Below, piece after piece: positions 26,232-32,436 of a DNA stretch of 32,436 nt. The translations under genes were made by a program, and so were the position numbers. Origin of the DNA: Alphaproteobacteria bacterium (lineage in GTDB: Bacteria; Pseudomonadota; Alphaproteobacteria; Micropepsales; Micropepsaceae). Location: the NCBI GenBank assembly GCA_009693985.1, contig SHWE01000022.1:1-32436 (forward strand), read 5' to 3'. The notes under the pieces were generated by a model, which worked only from the letters and a program-made list of their open reading frames with translations, did no database searches and was not told the DNA's origin. Within the stretch, counting starts at the first letter, position 1, and every line of letters begins with the position of its first letter.

Positions 26232-27344
26232 ATGGCGGACGAGGGCGACCAGCGCCGCTTCAAGCATAATCTCCAGGACGAGGTGGACGGCGCCGCCGTC
26301 TACAATGCGCTCGCGGACGCGGAAAGCGACCCGAACCTCGTGCGGATTTATCGCAGGCTCGCCTCCGTCGAAAGCGCCCATGCCGAATTCTGGCGTTCGC
26401 GTTTGGGGCGCTTCGCGCCCATCCTGACGCCGAGCCTCAGAGCGCGCGCGCTCGGCTGGCTGGCGCGAAGGTTCGGAGCCGGCTTCGTGCTGCCGACATT
26501 GGTGGCCGCCGAGAAGCGGGTCAGCGCGCATTACGACGCGCAACCCGATGCGGTGGCGGGCGGGTTGCCGGCGGACGAACGCTCGCATGCCCGCATCATC
26601 GGTCTTGCGGCATCGACGCATACGGGCCTTTCGGGCCCGGCGCTGGCGCGGCTCGAAGGGCGCCACAGGGGCGGCGGCAATGCGTTGCGCGCGGCGGTGC
26701 TTGGCGCCAATGACGGCCTCGTTTCGAATTTGAGCCTGGTGATGGGCGTCGCGGGTGCGGCGGCCGCCGAGCGCACCATCCTGCTCACGGGGCTCGCCGG
26801 CCTTGTCGCGGGCGCCTGCTCGATGGCGATGGGCGAATGGCTGTCGGTCACCAGCACGCGCGAACTTTATGAGCGTCAGATCGCGACCGAGGCCGAGGAA
26901 CTGAGGCAATCGCCCGAGGAAGAGAAGGAAGAACTCGCGCTTATCTATCAGGCCAAGGGGCTTGGCGAAGCGGAAGCGCACGCGCTCGCCGCCCGCCTTA
27001 TCGCCGATGAAAGCGTGGCGCTCGACACGCTGGTGCGCGAGGAACTCGGCATCGATCCCAAGACGCTGGGCGGCTCCGCCTACGAGGCGGCGGCGACGTC
27101 GTTTCTCCTGTTCGCATTGGGCGCGATCTTTCCGGTGATCCCGTTCTTTTTTCTTACCGGCGCGCCGGCGCTGTTCGCCAGTCTCGCATTCGCGGGCGTT
27201 GCGCTTGCAGCGGTCGGCGCCGGCACATCGCTCTTCACCGGACGCGGCCTTGTCTTTTCCGCCACGCGTCAGATCGCCATAGGCTATGGCGCGGCCCTCA
27301 TCACCTATGGCATCGGACGCGTCGCCGGTGTTGCACTCGGATAA
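26232..27344 (+). CDS. mbfA: MbfA-like ferritin-domain/VIT1 iron exporter
   Basis: 370 residues with AGGAG 6 nt upstream. The N-terminal half is a ferritin-like four-helix bundle with di-iron ligands visible as Glu17, E47-x-x-H50, Glu94 and E116-x-x-H119. The C-terminal half is a VIT1/CCC1 membrane domain: LGANDGLVSNLSLVMGV, then GLVAGACSMAMGEWLSV, a charged cytoplasmic helix with Glu-rich repeats (EAEELRQSPEEEKEE), and three further helices. This fusion is that of membrane-bound ferritin A of rhizobia and Agrobacterium, which exports iron and protects against iron and peroxide stress. No Irr-type ICE box was seen upstream. It lies 15 nt before the next gene, a likely co-transcribed partner. 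Confidence 0.86.
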   Translation: MADEGDQRRFKHNLQDEVDGAAVYNALADAESDPNLVRIYRRLASVESAHAEFWRSRLGRFAPILTPSLRARALGWLARRFGAGFVLPTLVAAEKRVSAHYDAQPDAVAGGLPADERSHARIIGLAASTHTGLSGPALARLEGRHRGGGNALRAAVLGANDGLVSNLSLVMGVAGAAAAERTILLTGLAGLVAGACSMAMGEWLSVTSTRELYERQIATEAEELRQSPEEEKEELALIYQAKGLGEAEAHALAARLIADESVALDTLVREELGIDPKTLGGSAYEAAATSFLLFALGAIFPVIPFFFLTGAPALFASLAFAGVALAAVGAGTSLFTGRGLVFSATRQIAIGYGAALITYGIGRVAGVALG

Positions 27345-27947: not shown

Positions 27948-28535
27948 TCATTCATTGCCGAGAAGATCGGCGAGGTCGCTCGGATCGAGCATCTGGGCAA
28001 GCCGCCTCTTGGCGCGGTAGACGCGCGTCTCCACCGCCTTCGCATTGATGCCGAGCGTTTCGCCGGCCTCCTTGTGCGACAGGCCCTCGAGCGCGGTGAG
28101 CACCAGAGCTTCCTTCAAGGGCCGGGGCAATTTGGCGACCGCGGTTTCGAGCCGTTGCAGCGCGTGATCCATCTGGTGCGCGGAATCGGGAGCGCTCGTG
28201 GCGGGCTCGCTCGACGCGGCGCCGATCCCGAGCAGCGCCAGCGCCGCCCGGCGCACGGCGTTGCGGCGCGCGCGGTCGCGACATTTGTTGAGCGCGATGC
28301 GCCGCAGCCAGGCTTCGAACGGGCGTTCGGGATCGAAACGGGCGAGCGCGCCCCAGGCCGAAACGAAACTCTCCTGCAACACGTCATAGGCATCGTCGCG
28401 GTCGGCGACGTAGCGGCGGATGAATTGATAGAGCCAGCCCTTGTGCCGGCGCATGATGGCGCCGAAGGCAGCCTGGTCCCCCCGCCGCGCGGCGATGGCG
28501 AGCGAGGCGTCGGATGGATCTTCGGCTGGCCTCAC
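27948..28535 (-). CDS. ECF sigma factor (CnrH-like position)
   Basis: 195 residues from a GTG overlapping the sensor stop (GTGA). Region 2 is visible near 20-90 (AFGAIMRRHKGWLYQFIRRYV, DAYDVLQESFVSAW, WLRRIALNKCRD) and region 4 near 130-185, with the helix-turn-helix LSHKEAGETLGINAKAVETRVYRAKRRL. An Ala/Ser-rich linker joins them. There is no C-terminal extension. It should direct RNA polymerase to its target promoters after release from the anti-sigma encoded two genes upstream. Last of a three-gene operon in the order anti-sigma, sensor, sigma, the same order as cnrYXH and nccYXN of Cupriavidus. Confidence 0.9.
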   Translation of the reverse strand: MRPAEDPSDASLAIAARRGDQAAFGAIMRRHKGWLYQFIRRYVADRDDAYDVLQESFVSAWGALARFDPERPFEAWLRRIALNKCRDRARRNAVRRAALALLGIGAASSEPATSAPDSAHQMDHALQRLETAVAKLPRPLKEALVLTALEGLSHKEAGETLGINAKAVETRVYRAKRRLAQMLDPSDLADLLGNE

Positions 28536-28993
28536 GGGTTGGAGGCGGTCGCGGTCAAGACCTCACGGACCTTGCGGTCGTAGATCATCTGCTGTTCGGG
28601 CGTGAGAATGTCGCGCACTTCGAGGACGTAAAGAATCGTCGCCCGCTGCAATTCGCCCAATCCCTGCTCGACGTGATTGCTGGCTTCCTGTGCTTCGCGG
28701 CCGAACGCCATGTCGGACATCAGCGCGTCGGCGAGCTCGCGATTGGCTTCGGCGACCTGCGAGCGCAGCATGACGCGGCGGTCGTAATATTTGCTCTCGA
28801 TGGTGCGGACGTCGCGGGACTGTTCCGAGGAGAGCTGCAGATCGCTATGGACGATCTCCGAGACCGTCTGGCGCAGCGGCAGTCCTTGCGCGTCATTGTC
28901 GAGCGCGTTGCGCGCGCCCATCCATCCGCCGACGGTGCCCGCCAGCAGGGCGACGGCGACGGTCAGCACGAGATTGCGCCAAAACGGGTTCAA
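28532..28993 (-). CDS. Periplasmic sensor, CnrX/heavy-metal-resistance family
   Basis: 153 residues from a TTG at 28993 that overlaps the upstream stop (TTGA); the frame is open further but that part is the shadow of the anti-sigma gene. One N-terminal membrane anchor (7-27) precedes an all-helical periplasmic domain that ends in DILTPEQQMIYDRKV, the LTPEQ mark of the CnrX/CpxP/Spy-like group. CnrX binds Co/Ni with His42, His46, Glu63, His119 and Met123; here H49 and E66 keep the 17-residue spacing of His46/Glu63, H107 may match His119, but position 45 is Ser and no Met follows. The metal site is thus incomplete, so the signal could be a different metal or not a metal. It overlaps the sigma start by 4 nt. 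Confidence 0.8.
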   Translation of the reverse strand: MNPFWRNLVLTVAVALLAGTVGGWMGARNALDNDAQGLPLRQTVSEIVHSDLQLSSEQSRDVRTIESKYYDRRVMLRSQVAEANRELADALMSDMAFGREAQEASNHVEQGLGELQRATILYVLEVRDILTPEQQMIYDRKVREVLTATASNP

Positions 28994-29286
28994 ACGCCGC
29001 CCTCGAGCCGCACCGACGGTGCCATGAAGCTGTCGTCGGAGAGCACCACGGTTTCGCTGTGCAGCGGCATCGGCATCACGGAGATGCCGGTGAACTGGGC
29101 AACCAGAAGGCCGAGCAGCAGCGCCCCGCAACTGACCGCGAGCTGGACTTGCAGCGTCTTGCCGCCGAAAATGTCCTGCTGGCTCTTGCGATCGATTCGC
29201 AACCACACATTGGCTTCCAACCGGTCGAGACCGCGGTCGGGAGGCGTCGCCTTCAGCCGGCTTAAAAGTTCGTCAATTCCTGCCAT
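28990..29286 (-). CDS. Anti-sigma factor-like single-pass membrane protein (CnrY position)
   Basis: 98 residues with GGAGG 8 nt upstream. Residues 1-44 are polar and helical (GIDELLSRLKATPPDRGLDRLE) and would face the cytoplasm to hold the sigma factor; residues 45-70 form one membrane helix; the rest is periplasmic. Short N-terminal sigma-binding helices plus one membrane helix are the layout of CnrY. Operon position first, before the CnrX-like sensor (4-nt overlap) and the ECF sigma, supports the role. Sequence similarity to CnrY is not evident by eye, as expected for such short proteins. Confidence 0.75.
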   Translation of the reverse strand: MAGIDELLSRLKATPPDRGLDRLEANVWLRIDRKSQQDIFGGKTLQVQLAVSCGALLLGLLVAQFTGISVMPMPLHSETVVLSDDSFMAPSVRLEGGV

Positions 29287-29453: not shown

Positions 29454-29879
29454 ATGAAATACGGGCTCCCCGTTTTGGTTGCCGTCCTCGCTTCCGCTGG
29501 CGCGAATTCCGCTGCCGCGCACCATTCATTCTCCATGTACGACCGTTACCGGACGGTTACGCTCTCGGGCACAGTCAAGGAATATATCTGGACCAGCCCT
29601 CACGTGACGATCCAATTGCTCCGCAATGCTGGCCGCGGCCCGGTGGTGTGGACGGTCGAAGGCAGTTCTCCGACCGTGCTTGCCCGCGGCGGCTGGACCA
29701 GCACGGTGATGAAGCCGGGCGACAGGATTTCGCTCGGCCTGCATCCGCGGAAAGACGGAAGCGCGGGCGGGCTGCTTGCTGACGAACAGCAATTGCTGGT
29801 CAACGGCCATCCCGCCAAGGGCGTGCTGTGGCTGCGACAGCACGGTGAAGAACTGAACGAGATGACAATTCGGCAATAA
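29454..29879 (+). CDS. Exported DUF6152-like protein
   Basis: 141 residues. The signal peptide (hydrophobic PVLVAVLASAGA, cleavage before AHH near residue 22) is followed by HHSFSMYD, typical of the DUF6152 proteins, then a small beta-rich domain (VTLSGTVKEYIWTSPHVTI) resembling an OB-like barrel, ending with a polar tail. The mature protein is periplasmic. Function is unknown in the family; the HH at the mature N-terminus could bind metal. It lies 256 nt upstream of the duplicated membrane protein, and the two may belong to one functional unit, though the gap suggests separate promoters. Confidence 0.7.
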   Translation: MKYGLPVLVAVLASAGANSAAAHHSFSMYDRYRTVTLSGTVKEYIWTSPHVTIQLLRNAGRGPVVWTVEGSSPTVLARGGWTSTVMKPGDRISLGLHPRKDGSAGGLLADEQQLLVNGHPAKGVLWLRQHGEELNEMTIRQ

Positions 29880-30079: not shown

Positions 30080-30113
30080 TTGACAATTGCGCCATTTGCC
30101 TGCACTAGCAGGC
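30080..30113 (+). promoter_or_regulatory. Candidate promoter and operator of the membrane module
   Basis: TTGACA, a perfect -35 box, is at 30080-30085. The perfect 16-bp dyad GCCTGC-ACTA-GCAGGC (30098-30113) lies where the -10 region should be, 23 nt before the ATG at 30136. No good TATAAT is seen at 16-18 nt spacing. The overlap of a -35 box with a dyad is a common repressor or activator arrangement. The rest of the 256-nt gap (29880-30135) shows nothing else convincing. Confidence 0.4.
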
Positions 30114-30135
30114 TGGGTCGTTGTGAGGGACTTTC

Positions 30136-31572
30136 ATGCATGTGATACCGGAATCTTGGTCGCATTTGCACATTCTTGTGACCGTCTTTCCGTCGGTCGG
30201 ATTGCTGCTTTTGCTCGGTTTGTACGGCGGCGCGTTCCTCTGGAACAACGAGATGATGAAGCGAACCTGCCTCGTCTCGTTCGCCATTTTAGGCATCCTG
30301 GCGATCCCGACCTATTTCAGCGGCGAATATGCGACGGCCGCGGTCCTCGCCGCGGACGACATGATCAACGAAGTGACGTTGGACCAGCATGTCTTCTGGG
30401 GCTACTTCGCGCTCACCCTCCTTGTGGCGATGGGTACAGCCGCGGGTTACGAATTGTGGCGCTTCCGCTCGCGCGGGAGCCTGTCGCTCAACGCGCTGCA
30501 CCTGGTCCTCGGTCTTGCCGTCGCGACCATGGTGATGATGCTCTATGTCGGCGAGCGCGGCTGGGAGATCAAACATCACGAGCTTCAACTCGTCGCCCAG
30601 GTGAACAACATTGTTTCCGCCGGCGACGTTCCGCAGGGGCAGGGAACGACGCAGGGCTGGTCGCACGTCCACATGATCCTCAATCACTTCCCGACCGTCG
30701 GGTTCGTGATTGCGCTCGGCTTCTTCGTCATTGCTCTGCTGACGCAGAACACCGGCATGAAGCGCGGCAGCCTAGTACTCTTCACCATTTGCGGCATCTT
30801 GGGCGCCCCGACCTATGTCACGGGCGCGGCGGCGATGTGGGCGTTGACCGATCCTCAGCCGGTGCTTGGGATTACCAAGGCCTCGATCGACGCGCATCGA
30901 GATATGGCGTTGCTGGCGCTATTCGGTCTCGCCTTTACCGGCGTCACCGCCTGGATAGCGCTGTGGCGGTTCCGCTATCTCGGCACGTTCTCCGACCGCG
31001 CGATGTATACGGTCCTCGGCTTCGGTATCGTCACGCTTGGTTTCATGGCCGAGACCGGCCACCGCGGCGGGCAGATCAATCATCCCGAAATCCGCACCGA
31101 GGCGCTGCCGACCGACGCCACCGCCTTCTGGAGCCCGCAGATCGAGCTCCTGATCAACAACGTGATCTGGTTCGTGCCCTGGCAGACCGTGCATTTCTTC
31201 GGCTATTCGCTGGTCTTCGGCACCGTGCTGGCCGTCGCGCTGCGCGTGCTGGGCTTCTGGAAAACCGTACCGTTCTCCGCCGTGCACCGGTTCCTGCCCT
31301 TGGGCGTGTTCGGTGTGGTGATGAACGTCTTCACCGGCATGCTGATGCTGATGGCCGATACGTTCCGCTATGTGAACGAAGCGTCCTTCACGCCGAAGAT
31401 GATCCTGCTTCCGATCGGCGCCATCGCGGTTCTGTATTTCTCTCTGTCGGAACCGCTTTGGAAGATCAAGGCGGGAGAGGACGCGCCGATGGCCGCCAAA
31501 TGGGTCGCCGTCATCGTCCTCTTGTCTTGGGTTGGCGTGATCATGGGCGGCCGGTTGCTGCCCTATACGTGA
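30136..31572 (+). CDS. Internally duplicated multi-helix membrane protein (DUF2231-like x2 plus DUF6644-like)
   Basis: 478 residues with GAGGGA upstream. The first two thirds are a tandem repeat with spacing about 167 residues: WSHLHILVTVFPSVG (8-22) and WSHVHMILNHFPTVG (175-189), MKR (41, 208), PTYFSG/PTYVTG (58, 225), an aligned His (85, 254), LWRFR (107, 276) and a GERGWEIKHHEL/GHRGGQINHPEI end (139, 308). Each repeat has four or so membrane helices. The last third (about 340-478) resembles the 159-aa protein encoded downstream (VHFFG/LHAFG, ALRVLGF/GLRLLGL). Conserved histidines at membrane edges could hold heme or transfer protons. No signal peptide, CxxCH or known catalytic motif. Family names are tentative and the function is unknown. 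Confidence 0.7.
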   Translation: MHVIPESWSHLHILVTVFPSVGLLLLLGLYGGAFLWNNEMMKRTCLVSFAILGILAIPTYFSGEYATAAVLAADDMINEVTLDQHVFWGYFALTLLVAMGTAAGYELWRFRSRGSLSLNALHLVLGLAVATMVMMLYVGERGWEIKHHELQLVAQVNNIVSAGDVPQGQGTTQGWSHVHMILNHFPTVGFVIALGFFVIALLTQNTGMKRGSLVLFTICGILGAPTYVTGAAAMWALTDPQPVLGITKASIDAHRDMALLALFGLAFTGVTAWIALWRFRYLGTFSDRAMYTVLGFGIVTLGFMAETGHRGGQINHPEIRTEALPTDATAFWSPQIELLINNVIWFVPWQTVHFFGYSLVFGTVLAVALRVLGFWKTVPFSAVHRFLPLGVFGVVMNVFTGMLMLMADTFRYVNEASFTPKMILLPIGAIAVLYFSLSEPLWKIKAGEDAPMAAKWVAVIVLLSWVGVIMGGRLLPYT

Positions 31573-31590
31573 TACGGAGGGGATACCCCT

Positions 31591-31695
31591 ATGGAACTCT
31601 TATTGATGGTCGTTGCCGTCTCGGCGTTTGTCTTGGCCCTGTCTTTCACCGGGATATATTTCTTGAACAAGGATGTGGACCGCACCGGCCTCTAA
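31591..31695 (+). CDS. 34-residue single-helix membrane microprotein
   Basis: An ATG at 31591 with GGAGG 10 nt upstream opens a 34-codon frame to TAA at 31693-31695. The product is one hydrophobic helix (about residues 3-25) followed by a charged end (NKDVDRTGL). It lies 18 nt after the duplicated membrane protein and 46 nt before the 159-aa membrane protein, on the same strand. Size and position resemble the small helper subunits of respiratory complexes such as CydX or CcoQ, but no sequence match is claimed. Ribosome site, composition and spacing make it a likely real gene. Confidence 0.6.
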   Translation: MELLLMVVAVSAFVLALSFTGIYFLNKDVDRTGL

Positions 31696-31741
31696 ACCGG
31701 CCCGTATCGGTGGACACAGCGCGATCGAGGGAGACTGAACA

Positions 31742-32221
31742 ATGTTCGAAATGATCACGAGTACCCAGTATGCGACCTGGGTCAGGGAATCCTGGGGCTG
31801 GCCCTATGCACTGACGCTGCACGCCTTCGGGACGGCGGTCGTCGTCGGTCTCATCTTCATCATCGGCCTGCGTCTCCTCGGTTTATTCCGCACGATCCCG
31901 CACGCCTCGCTGCTCCGGCTGATCCCCGTCATCTGGGTCGGCGTCATCGTGCAGGCCTATAGCGGCTTCACGCTGTGGACCTCGAAGCCGGACAAATATT
32001 TCGCCGACGGGATGTTCCTGTGGAAGTTCTCGCTGGTCGTGCTCGGGGTCATCGTGACCCTATATTTCCAGAAGATCCTCAAGCAAGAGGCCGCCGGCTG
32101 GGACAAGTCGGGAAAGGCCTCCAAGCGCGGCGTGCAGTTCGTCGCCCTGACGGCCCTGTGCTGGACCGCCGTTTTGGTCGCCGGCCGCCTGACCGCCTAT
32201 ATCGGGACCTTGTACGGCTAA
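31742..32221 (+). CDS. DUF6644-like membrane protein, paralogue of the C-terminal domain of the 478-aa protein
   Basis: 159 residues with GAGGGAGA upstream. Four membrane helices: about 22-45, 60-80, 93-112 and 133-155. His27 in LTLHAFG and GLRLLGLFRTIPHASLLRLIPVIWVGVIVQAYSG align with VHFFG and ALRVLGFWKTVP...HRFLPLGVFGVVMNVFTG of the larger protein. A large soluble domain is absent. The two proteins probably associate, with the microprotein, in one inner-membrane complex. No redox cofactor motif other than the aligned His was seen. It ends 23 nt before a strong terminator. Confidence 0.72.
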   Translation: MFEMITSTQYATWVRESWGWPYALTLHAFGTAVVVGLIFIIGLRLLGLFRTIPHASLLRLIPVIWVGVIVQAYSGFTLWTSKPDKYFADGMFLWKFSLVVLGVIVTLYFQKILKQEAAGWDKSGKASKRGVQFVALTALCWTAVLVAGRLTAYIGTLYG

Positions 32222-32244: not shown

Positions 32245-32283
32245 AAAAACCGCCGCCCTCATCCGAGGCGCGGCGGTTTTTTT
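32245..32283. terminator. Rho-independent terminator
   Basis: A-rich flank, then CCGCCGC-CCTC, loop ATCC, GAGG-C-GCGGCGG with a single-base bulge, followed by T7. The A-run before and T-run after allow it to work for both the plus-strand membrane module and the convergent minus-strand gene. Confidence 0.92.
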
Positions 32284-32293
32284 CGTTAGAGAT

Positions 32294-32436
32294 CTAAACC
32301 AGTGGCCGATTGCGCCACTTGTCTCTCAGAAGCGTCACGCTGCCGCTTAGGCCGAGGATGAAGAAGGCCGTCATCAGCATAAAAGCCAAGGTCGTGCCGG
32401 CACCGACGCCGGAAAAGGCGAGCAAGCCCGCGATCA
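32294..32436 (-). CDS. Small membrane protein, 3' part
   Basis: Read on the minus strand, a frame is open from the window edge to TAG at 32296-32294, giving 46 visible C-terminal residues. They are Ala/Gly/Leu-rich and hydrophobic (LLAFSGVGAGTTLAFMLMTAFFILGL) and end in a basic tail (RDKWRNRPLV). The Gly/Ala-rich helix pair recalls DUF1328-like small membrane proteins, but this is weak. It is convergent with the 159-aa membrane gene and shares the bidirectional terminator. The 5' end is outside the window. Confidence 0.5.
   Translation of the reverse strand, partial: IAGLLAFSGVGAGTTLAFMLMTAFFILGLSGSVTLLRDKWRNRPLV

Follow-up and report, generated by a model that had tools for sequence, protein, structure and literature searches.

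A conserved three-gene membrane module joining tandem DUF2231 domains to DUF6644-like proteins in Alphaproteobacteria

Contig SHWE01000022.1 of an alphaproteobacterium of the family Micropepsaceae (assembly GCA_009693985.1) is 32,436 nucleotides long, and we refer to this whole stretch of analysed DNA as the window. Three adjacent genes near its end raise the question of what a large membrane protein, a microprotein and a small membrane protein might do together; the original prediction had taken them for subunits of an uncharacterised inner-membrane complex, perhaps one that binds heme. Our analysis found the three open reading frames at the coordinates originally given, and these three genes very probably encode a conserved, unstudied membrane complex. 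A 555-aa open reading frame in another frame (30087-31754) was dropped because the conserved frame is that of the 478-aa protein. The features of the module are the following.

30136-31572, plus strand: 478-aa membrane protein with tandem DUF2231 domains (D1, D2) and a DUF6644-like D3 (open reading frame, Pfam, internal repeat, AlphaFold2, relatives)
30136-30615, plus strand: D1, residues 1-160, first DUF2231-like four-helix bundle; conserved H10, H12, H85 and H147 (hhalign, invariant columns, family alignment)
30634-31122, plus strand: D2, residues 167-329, second DUF2231 bundle; conserved H177, H179, H184, H254, H309 and H316 (PF09990, alignments)
31123-31569, plus strand: D3, residues 330-478, DUF6644-like bundle with conserved H353, R370, K421 and R473, corresponding to member B of unfused DUF6644 pairs (hhalign, PF20349, tree, columns)
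31591-31695, plus strand: 34-aa single-helix microprotein (conservation, dN<dS, GGAGG ribosome site upstream)
31742-32221, plus strand: 159-aa four-helix DUF6644-like protein with conserved H27, corresponding to member A of unfused pairs (alignment of eight orthologues, tree)
32250-32283, plus strand: terminator-like hairpin and T-run 3' of the small gene, recognised by reading the sequence (CCGCCGC, 13 nt, GCGGCGG, then 7 T; the loop exceeds the scanner's length)

Spread of the module and its microprotein

Gene order in relatives had been proposed as a check on the complex, and the order large gene, microprotein gene, small gene indeed recurs in five other loci from alphaproteobacterial MAGs (L006, L007, L008, L009 and L019/L057, the last being a second copy of the module in genome G001). 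Full-length orthologues, collected by a species-genome scan and a relative search, are 53-65% identical and come from MAGs labelled Alphaproteobacteria, Hyphomicrobiales and Caulobacterales. The three-domain protein appears to be rare, since sampling 385 genomes from the class and 398 from the phylum turned it up in no other genome; matches to D3 alone are commoner. In genomes G002 and G005 the large and small genes stand together without the microprotein, and the large gene is cut there by contig ends. That of G002 spans two contig ends with overlapping sequence (C351 and C463; loci L061 and L060), and D1 of its product is longer by some 65 inserted residues that are absent from the other orthologues.

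Judged by its pattern of sequence conservation, the 34-aa open reading frame is a real gene under purifying selection. It is conserved in L006, L007, L008 and L009 and as a 36-aa reading in L019, with M, V, L, F, N-K and D positions invariant across the alignment of five loci, and dN was lower than dS in all eight pairs for which dS is defined. The microprotein is predicted by the positive-inside rule to have its N-terminus outside, and it may now be counted among the candidates for very small subunits of membrane complexes.

Two domain types and their descent

The large protein had been described as two copies of a histidine-bearing domain, about 167 residues apart, followed by a third domain related to the small protein, and profile comparisons bear out this architecture. 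Ungapped self-comparison gave 35 identities over 160 residues at offset 167 and 32 at offset 169, against 9-15 at the other offsets between 160 and 175. Aligned by hhalign, D1 and D2 are homologous (P 99.94, E 5e-37, score 218.8 over 153 columns, compared with a maximum of 16.6 in 40 column shuffles), and their common fold is confidently modelled. D3 and the 159-aa protein align with a score of 107 (E 7.5e-18; shuffle maximum 22.7). Profile comparison of D1 or D2 with D3 gave no significant homology, so the module contains two domain types, one duplicated within the large protein and the other common to both proteins. The term "uncharacterised" is still apt for the complex as a whole, but its domains are recognisable as DUF2231 and divergent DUF6644.

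By sequence criteria, D1 and D2 belong to DUF2231. The PF09990 profile scores 26.6 bits on D2 alone, passing the cut-off of 26.4; it scores 14.4 bits on D1 alone, below the cut-off, and 25.1 bits on the whole 478-aa protein, slightly under it. Whole orthologues from L006 and L057 pass with 32.5 and 32.8 bits, respectively. Like other members of the family, each domain has four membrane helices, an H-x4-HFP-type motif at helix 1, and a histidine or aromatic residue at the end of helix 4 preceded by G-G; the module differs in that the domain is duplicated in tandem and fused to DUF6644, and the second motif histidine is missing from D1. Among the single-domain relatives seen, the closest are 160-aa proteins encoded by Hymenobacter plasmids; others are on Fibrella and Gemmatirosa plasmids. 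D1 and D2 are nearest in sequence to the single-domain HLHLxLNHxPIxG subfamily on Bacteroidota plasmids. The pattern of these relatives reads AHLHLxLNHxPILG...PTQLTG...HEHEEA...GGQIMHPEA. On one Hymenobacter plasmid (L102), a VIT gene adjoins the DUF2231 relative.

The histidine correspondences originally drawn between the domains (10/12 with 177/179, 85 with 254, 147 with 316, and 353 with residue 27 of the small protein) proved right. H10, H12, H85, H147, H177, H179, H184, H254, H309, H316, H353 and H384 are all invariant in an alignment of six large proteins, and H27 is invariant in eight small ones. H184 of D2 is a family histidine beyond those first listed; D1 has V17 at that position. 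The histidines originally pointed out are those of DUF2231 itself: in a 24-row alignment of the family, the H12/H179 column (column 43) is His in 23 rows, the H85/H254 column (column 123) is His in 17, and the H147/H316 column (column 188) is His or Tyr throughout. The equivalent of H254 is missing from classic DUF2231 members, and a histidine pair involving H254 is therefore not universal in the family.

D3 and the small protein are, on sequence evidence, divergent but clear relatives of DUF6644 (PF20349), with which they share four helices and a P/H/R/G/K/R pattern. Both fall short of the Pfam threshold, D3 scoring 24.5 bits under a cut-off of 27 and the small protein giving no match to PF20349 in the Pfam scan, and phmmer links the large and small proteins to DUF6644 paralogues of L009 that lie above the cut-off (E 2.6e-11 to 3.7e-14). 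DUF6644 genes often stand in tandem pairs, and contig C47 of the window's own genome has one as well. A maximum-likelihood tree built from 40 DUF6644 sequences gives the D3 domains a clade of their own (support 100/99) that joins the B members of these pairs (95/88); the clade of the small proteins (100/100) joins the A members (97/89). D3 and the small protein thus go back to the two members of an older tandem pair, and in the simplest history the B member of that A+B pair became attached downstream of a duplicated DUF2231. Compared with the unfused pairs, the module has the opposite gene order, a B member fused to DUF2231 and an added microprotein. Because A and B have persisted together, it is a natural inference that D3 and the small protein form a heterodimer, and the tree thus gives a subunit pairing that is directly testable.

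Genes around the module

The module is preceded by four further genes, which the original prediction had not covered.

27948-28535, minus strand: ECF sigma factor (PF04542, 6.4e-18; PF08281, 1.6e-14)
28532-28993, minus strand: CnrX-like periplasmic sensor of the Metal_resist family (PF13801, 2.3e-10)
28990-29286, minus strand: CnrY-like one-helix anti-sigma candidate of 98 aa (orthologues in the same place in L006 and L008; role from position)
29454-29879, plus strand: DUF6152 gene for a secreted, probably OB-fold protein (PF19649, alignment of 11 proteins, AlphaFold2 core, fold matches)

The DUF6152 gene lies directly upstream of the module, and its product matches PF19649 with 96.5 bits against a cut-off of 27. 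An alignment of 11 DUF6152 proteins shows Ala as the last residue of the signal peptide, then an invariant His-His and, further on, an invariant Pro-His. The core of the protein is probably an OB fold, since the matches listed in the fold search were of OB type; the underlying AlphaFold2 model is of moderate quality (mean pLDDT 66, core mostly 75-92), which makes this fold a good guess and not a result. A CopC-like fold, considered before modelling, does not resemble the model. DUF6152 also adjoins DUF6644 genes in several other genera and on an annotated Azospirillum plasmid, and a Novosphingobium plasmid has a DUF6644 pair less than 3 kb from DUF6152. The DUF6152 gene is thus probably linked functionally to the module. 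In four genomes (L044, L049, L053 and L054), a DUF6152-DUF6644 pair follows the gene of a MPSLSRSLEQAL protein of about 775 aa, ClpA-like by reading; this position of the pair is a stable one.

The three genes at 27948-29286 resemble CnrYXH in their Y-X-H order and in the homology of X to CnrX/NccX, and the L006 orthologue of the sensor matches CnrX 2y39 with E 3.5e-15. The 98-aa protein has no Pfam match, and its assignment as Y is by position and size only. The trio diverges from the DUF6152/module operon in three loci (the window, L006 and L008) and was not found near the module in L007, L009 or L057. The Ni/Co ligands of CnrX are H42, H46, E63, H119 and M123. In contrast to CnrX, all three CnrX-like proteins have Tyr in place of H119 and Val in place of M123, and H42, H46 and E63 are not conserved; without the H119 and M123 ligands, the signal of the trio is not predicted.

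Redox and metal genes occur around other copies and relatives. In G001, genes for a NosR-like polyferredoxin and ApbE (L057, 1305-4512) immediately precede the second copy of the module on the same strand; no nosZ was found on the 1.3 kb read upstream of them. Another NosR-like gene is on the module's contig in G002, and relatives of the L057 NosR-like protein are present in G002, G018 and G037. In the phylum sample, two loci (L072 and L073, by reading) have DUF2231 genes adjoining a cox2/ctaC gene, and the block around one single-domain relative contains Rieske, YceI, Dps, catalase and CusA/CzcA genes. Downstream of the module, genes for a HupE/UreJ-type protein, a PpiC-type isomerase and a diheme cytochrome c recur (L006, 9324-12464; L008, 10431-13975), and the L008 region additionally has TonB receptors.

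Predicted structure and possible function

The AlphaFold2 model of the 478-aa protein, built from 20 sequences, has 12 membrane helices in three bundles (pLDDT 82.8, pTM 0.85). In each bundle positive residues come after helices 1 and 3, which would place the starts of these helices and the end of helix 4 on the periplasmic side, so that all the conserved histidine clusters are predicted to lie at periplasmic helix ends. Together, the conserved gene order, the selection on the microprotein, the 12 predicted helices and the descent from a DUF6644 pair support well the view of these proteins as subunits of an inner-membrane complex.

A direct Foldseek search with the large-protein model gave no match with E up to 0.001, and searching solved structures by sequence with profiles of D1-D2, the small protein and DUF6152 gave nothing useful. 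Using VIA-align on D1+D2, with chains pre-ranked by Foldseek, the best matches were ten entries of cytochrome bd subunit I (Z 11.1-13.3, 273-287 residues, rmsd 4.0-4.9), followed by NrfD-type subunits, those of alternative complex III at Z 9.7-10.6 and PsrC of polysulfide reductase at 9.5. Helical bundles can attain Z values of this size merely by being arranged alike, and the same list includes single-bundle matches to a designed bundle and talin at Z 11-12.5; we therefore treat the likeness to cytochrome bd as one of plan and not of kinship. The modelled superposition, of two consecutive four-helix bundles in each case, may reflect this common arrangement only. Cytochrome bd shares with the module a single-helix operon product of about 35 aa, CydX, and histidines on the periplasmic side; it differs in that the third bundle here is DUF6644-like and the CydA profile is absent, a Pfam scan of the whole large protein with E up to 1 giving only DUF2231 and NDUF_B12.

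The probable role of the module is to carry electrons or to handle metal on the outer side of the inner membrane. On the strength of its redox neighbours, its bundle plan and its histidines on the periplasmic side, we tentatively favour an inner-membrane electron-transfer module with b-type hemes, linked to heme and quinol at the periplasmic face, at a probability of roughly 0.4. Heme binding, as originally suggested, would fit the histidines modelled at periplasmic helix ends and makes heme a candidate cofactor. Against it, searches by sequence and by Foldseek gave no match to known heme proteins, the Z scores may stem from a common bundle arrangement, and classic DUF2231 members have no counterpart of H254. 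In this mechanism, the small protein and D3, as A and B halves, would form a pseudo-symmetric heterodimer, and each DUF2231 bundle would hold one b-type heme near the periplasmic surface, with H12 and H85 as candidate ligands in D1 and H179 or H184 together with H254 in D2. A third cofactor might be held jointly by H353 and H27 across the A/B interface, and the microprotein would steady the assembly in the manner of CydX in cytochrome bd. The quinone pool would exchange electrons with a periplasmic partner, here probably the DUF6152 protein with its His-His N-terminus and, for the second copy in G001, a NosR-like/ApbE flavin chain. In a survey of ApbE-linked electron-transfer systems, ApbE substrates are described as mediating extracytosolic electron transfer, and Nos-type and other membrane partners are listed (PMC8238504). 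DUF2231, DUF6644 and DUF6152 do not occur in the text of that paper, according to a full-text search.

The metal-linked neighbours (the CnrX-like sensor, the His-His of DUF6152 and the Cus/Czc gene near a relative) fit metal handling equally well. The handling of copper or another metal is a serious rival because of these neighbours and the DUF6152 partner, and we regard it as possible if somewhat doubtful. The invariant Ala-His-His and Pro-His of the 11 DUF6152 proteins would bind metal and deliver it to the histidines on the periplasmic side of the membrane proteins, so that it could be imported, detoxified or inserted into a cuproenzyme, analogously to CopC-CopD or CusF-Cus. CusF is among the weak Foldseek matches of the DUF6152 model (E 0.021), and the adjacency of DUF6152 and DUF6644 across genera, including Azospirillum, the divergent trio in three loci and the DUF2231 genes beside cox2/ctaC all agree with such a role. 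As in CopC-CopD, the gene of a secreted protein with a His-rich N-terminus stands beside that of a multi-helix membrane protein, and one DUF6644 paralogue matches CopD weakly (E 0.0012). The two systems differ in that CopC is a beta-sandwich and DUF6152 models as an OB fold. Against a copper role, neither D3 nor the small protein matches CopD (PF05425) with E up to 1. The comparison of DUF6644 and CopD profiles (24.7) barely tops its reversed control (22.7; shuffle maximum 14.8), and we do not claim this kinship; nor do we claim one with HemJ, for which DUF6644 scored 16.95 against a shuffle maximum of 16.7. The absence of H119 and M123 from the CnrX-like protein also weighs against metal handling, and the NosR-like/ApbE context points to electrons, although NosR itself serves a copper enzyme.

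It is quite improbable that the module is a sensor or regulatory complex, feeding an envelope or redox signal to the CnrYXH-like sigma system with histidines that are structural or pH-sensing. The divergence of the trio from the operon in the window, L006 and L008 would suit this role, as would a CnrX homologue whose input is not given by Ni/Co ligands, but in L007, L009 and L057 no such trio accompanies the module. No ECF promoter motif common to the divergent region and the module was found, and a TTGACA-like element precedes the large gene by 50-60 bases in both the window and L006. Least probable, and in our view very unlikely, is a module that binds heme and hands it to periplasmic apocytochromes. 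CcmE is an OB-fold heme chaperone, and DUF6152, secreted, probably of OB fold and with conserved histidines, might be a similar carrier; in L006 and L008 the module has cytochrome c genes in its vicinity, and CcmF appears in the structural list at Z 9.7. This last match is within the chance range for bundles, however, and nothing was seen that connects the module with an operon for cytochrome c maturation.

An extension of the electron-transfer reading, which we hold to be unlikely, is that the module represents a new class of periplasmic-face membrane oxidoreductases with no sequence kinship to cytochrome bd or b561. Such an enzyme, made up of two heme bundles of the DUF2231 type, an A/B heterodimer that shares a third cofactor across a pseudo-two-fold axis and a CydX-like microprotein, would couple quinones either to DUF6152 as a metalloprotein or to a NosR-like chain that is flavinylated; if true, this would give DUF2231, DUF6644 and DUF6152 together their first function. 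A full-text literature search found no paper on DUF6644 or DUF6152, and DUF2231 was named in one database paper only. Beyond the original prediction, our analysis adds the DUF2231 and DUF6644 identities, the ancestry in a gene pair, the DUF6152 neighbour, the CnrYXH-like trio and a second copy linked to NosR-like and ApbE genes. The three families are annotated in many bacteria, and since fusion and gene order unite them in this module, a single purification could be enough to assign each of them a cofactor.

Further out in the window, the plus-strand gene at 26232-27344 joins a rubrerythrin-like domain to a transporter of the VIT type and is MbfA-like by reading, and a small membrane open reading frame on the minus strand at 32294-32436, DUF1328-like by reading only, is truncated by the contig end.
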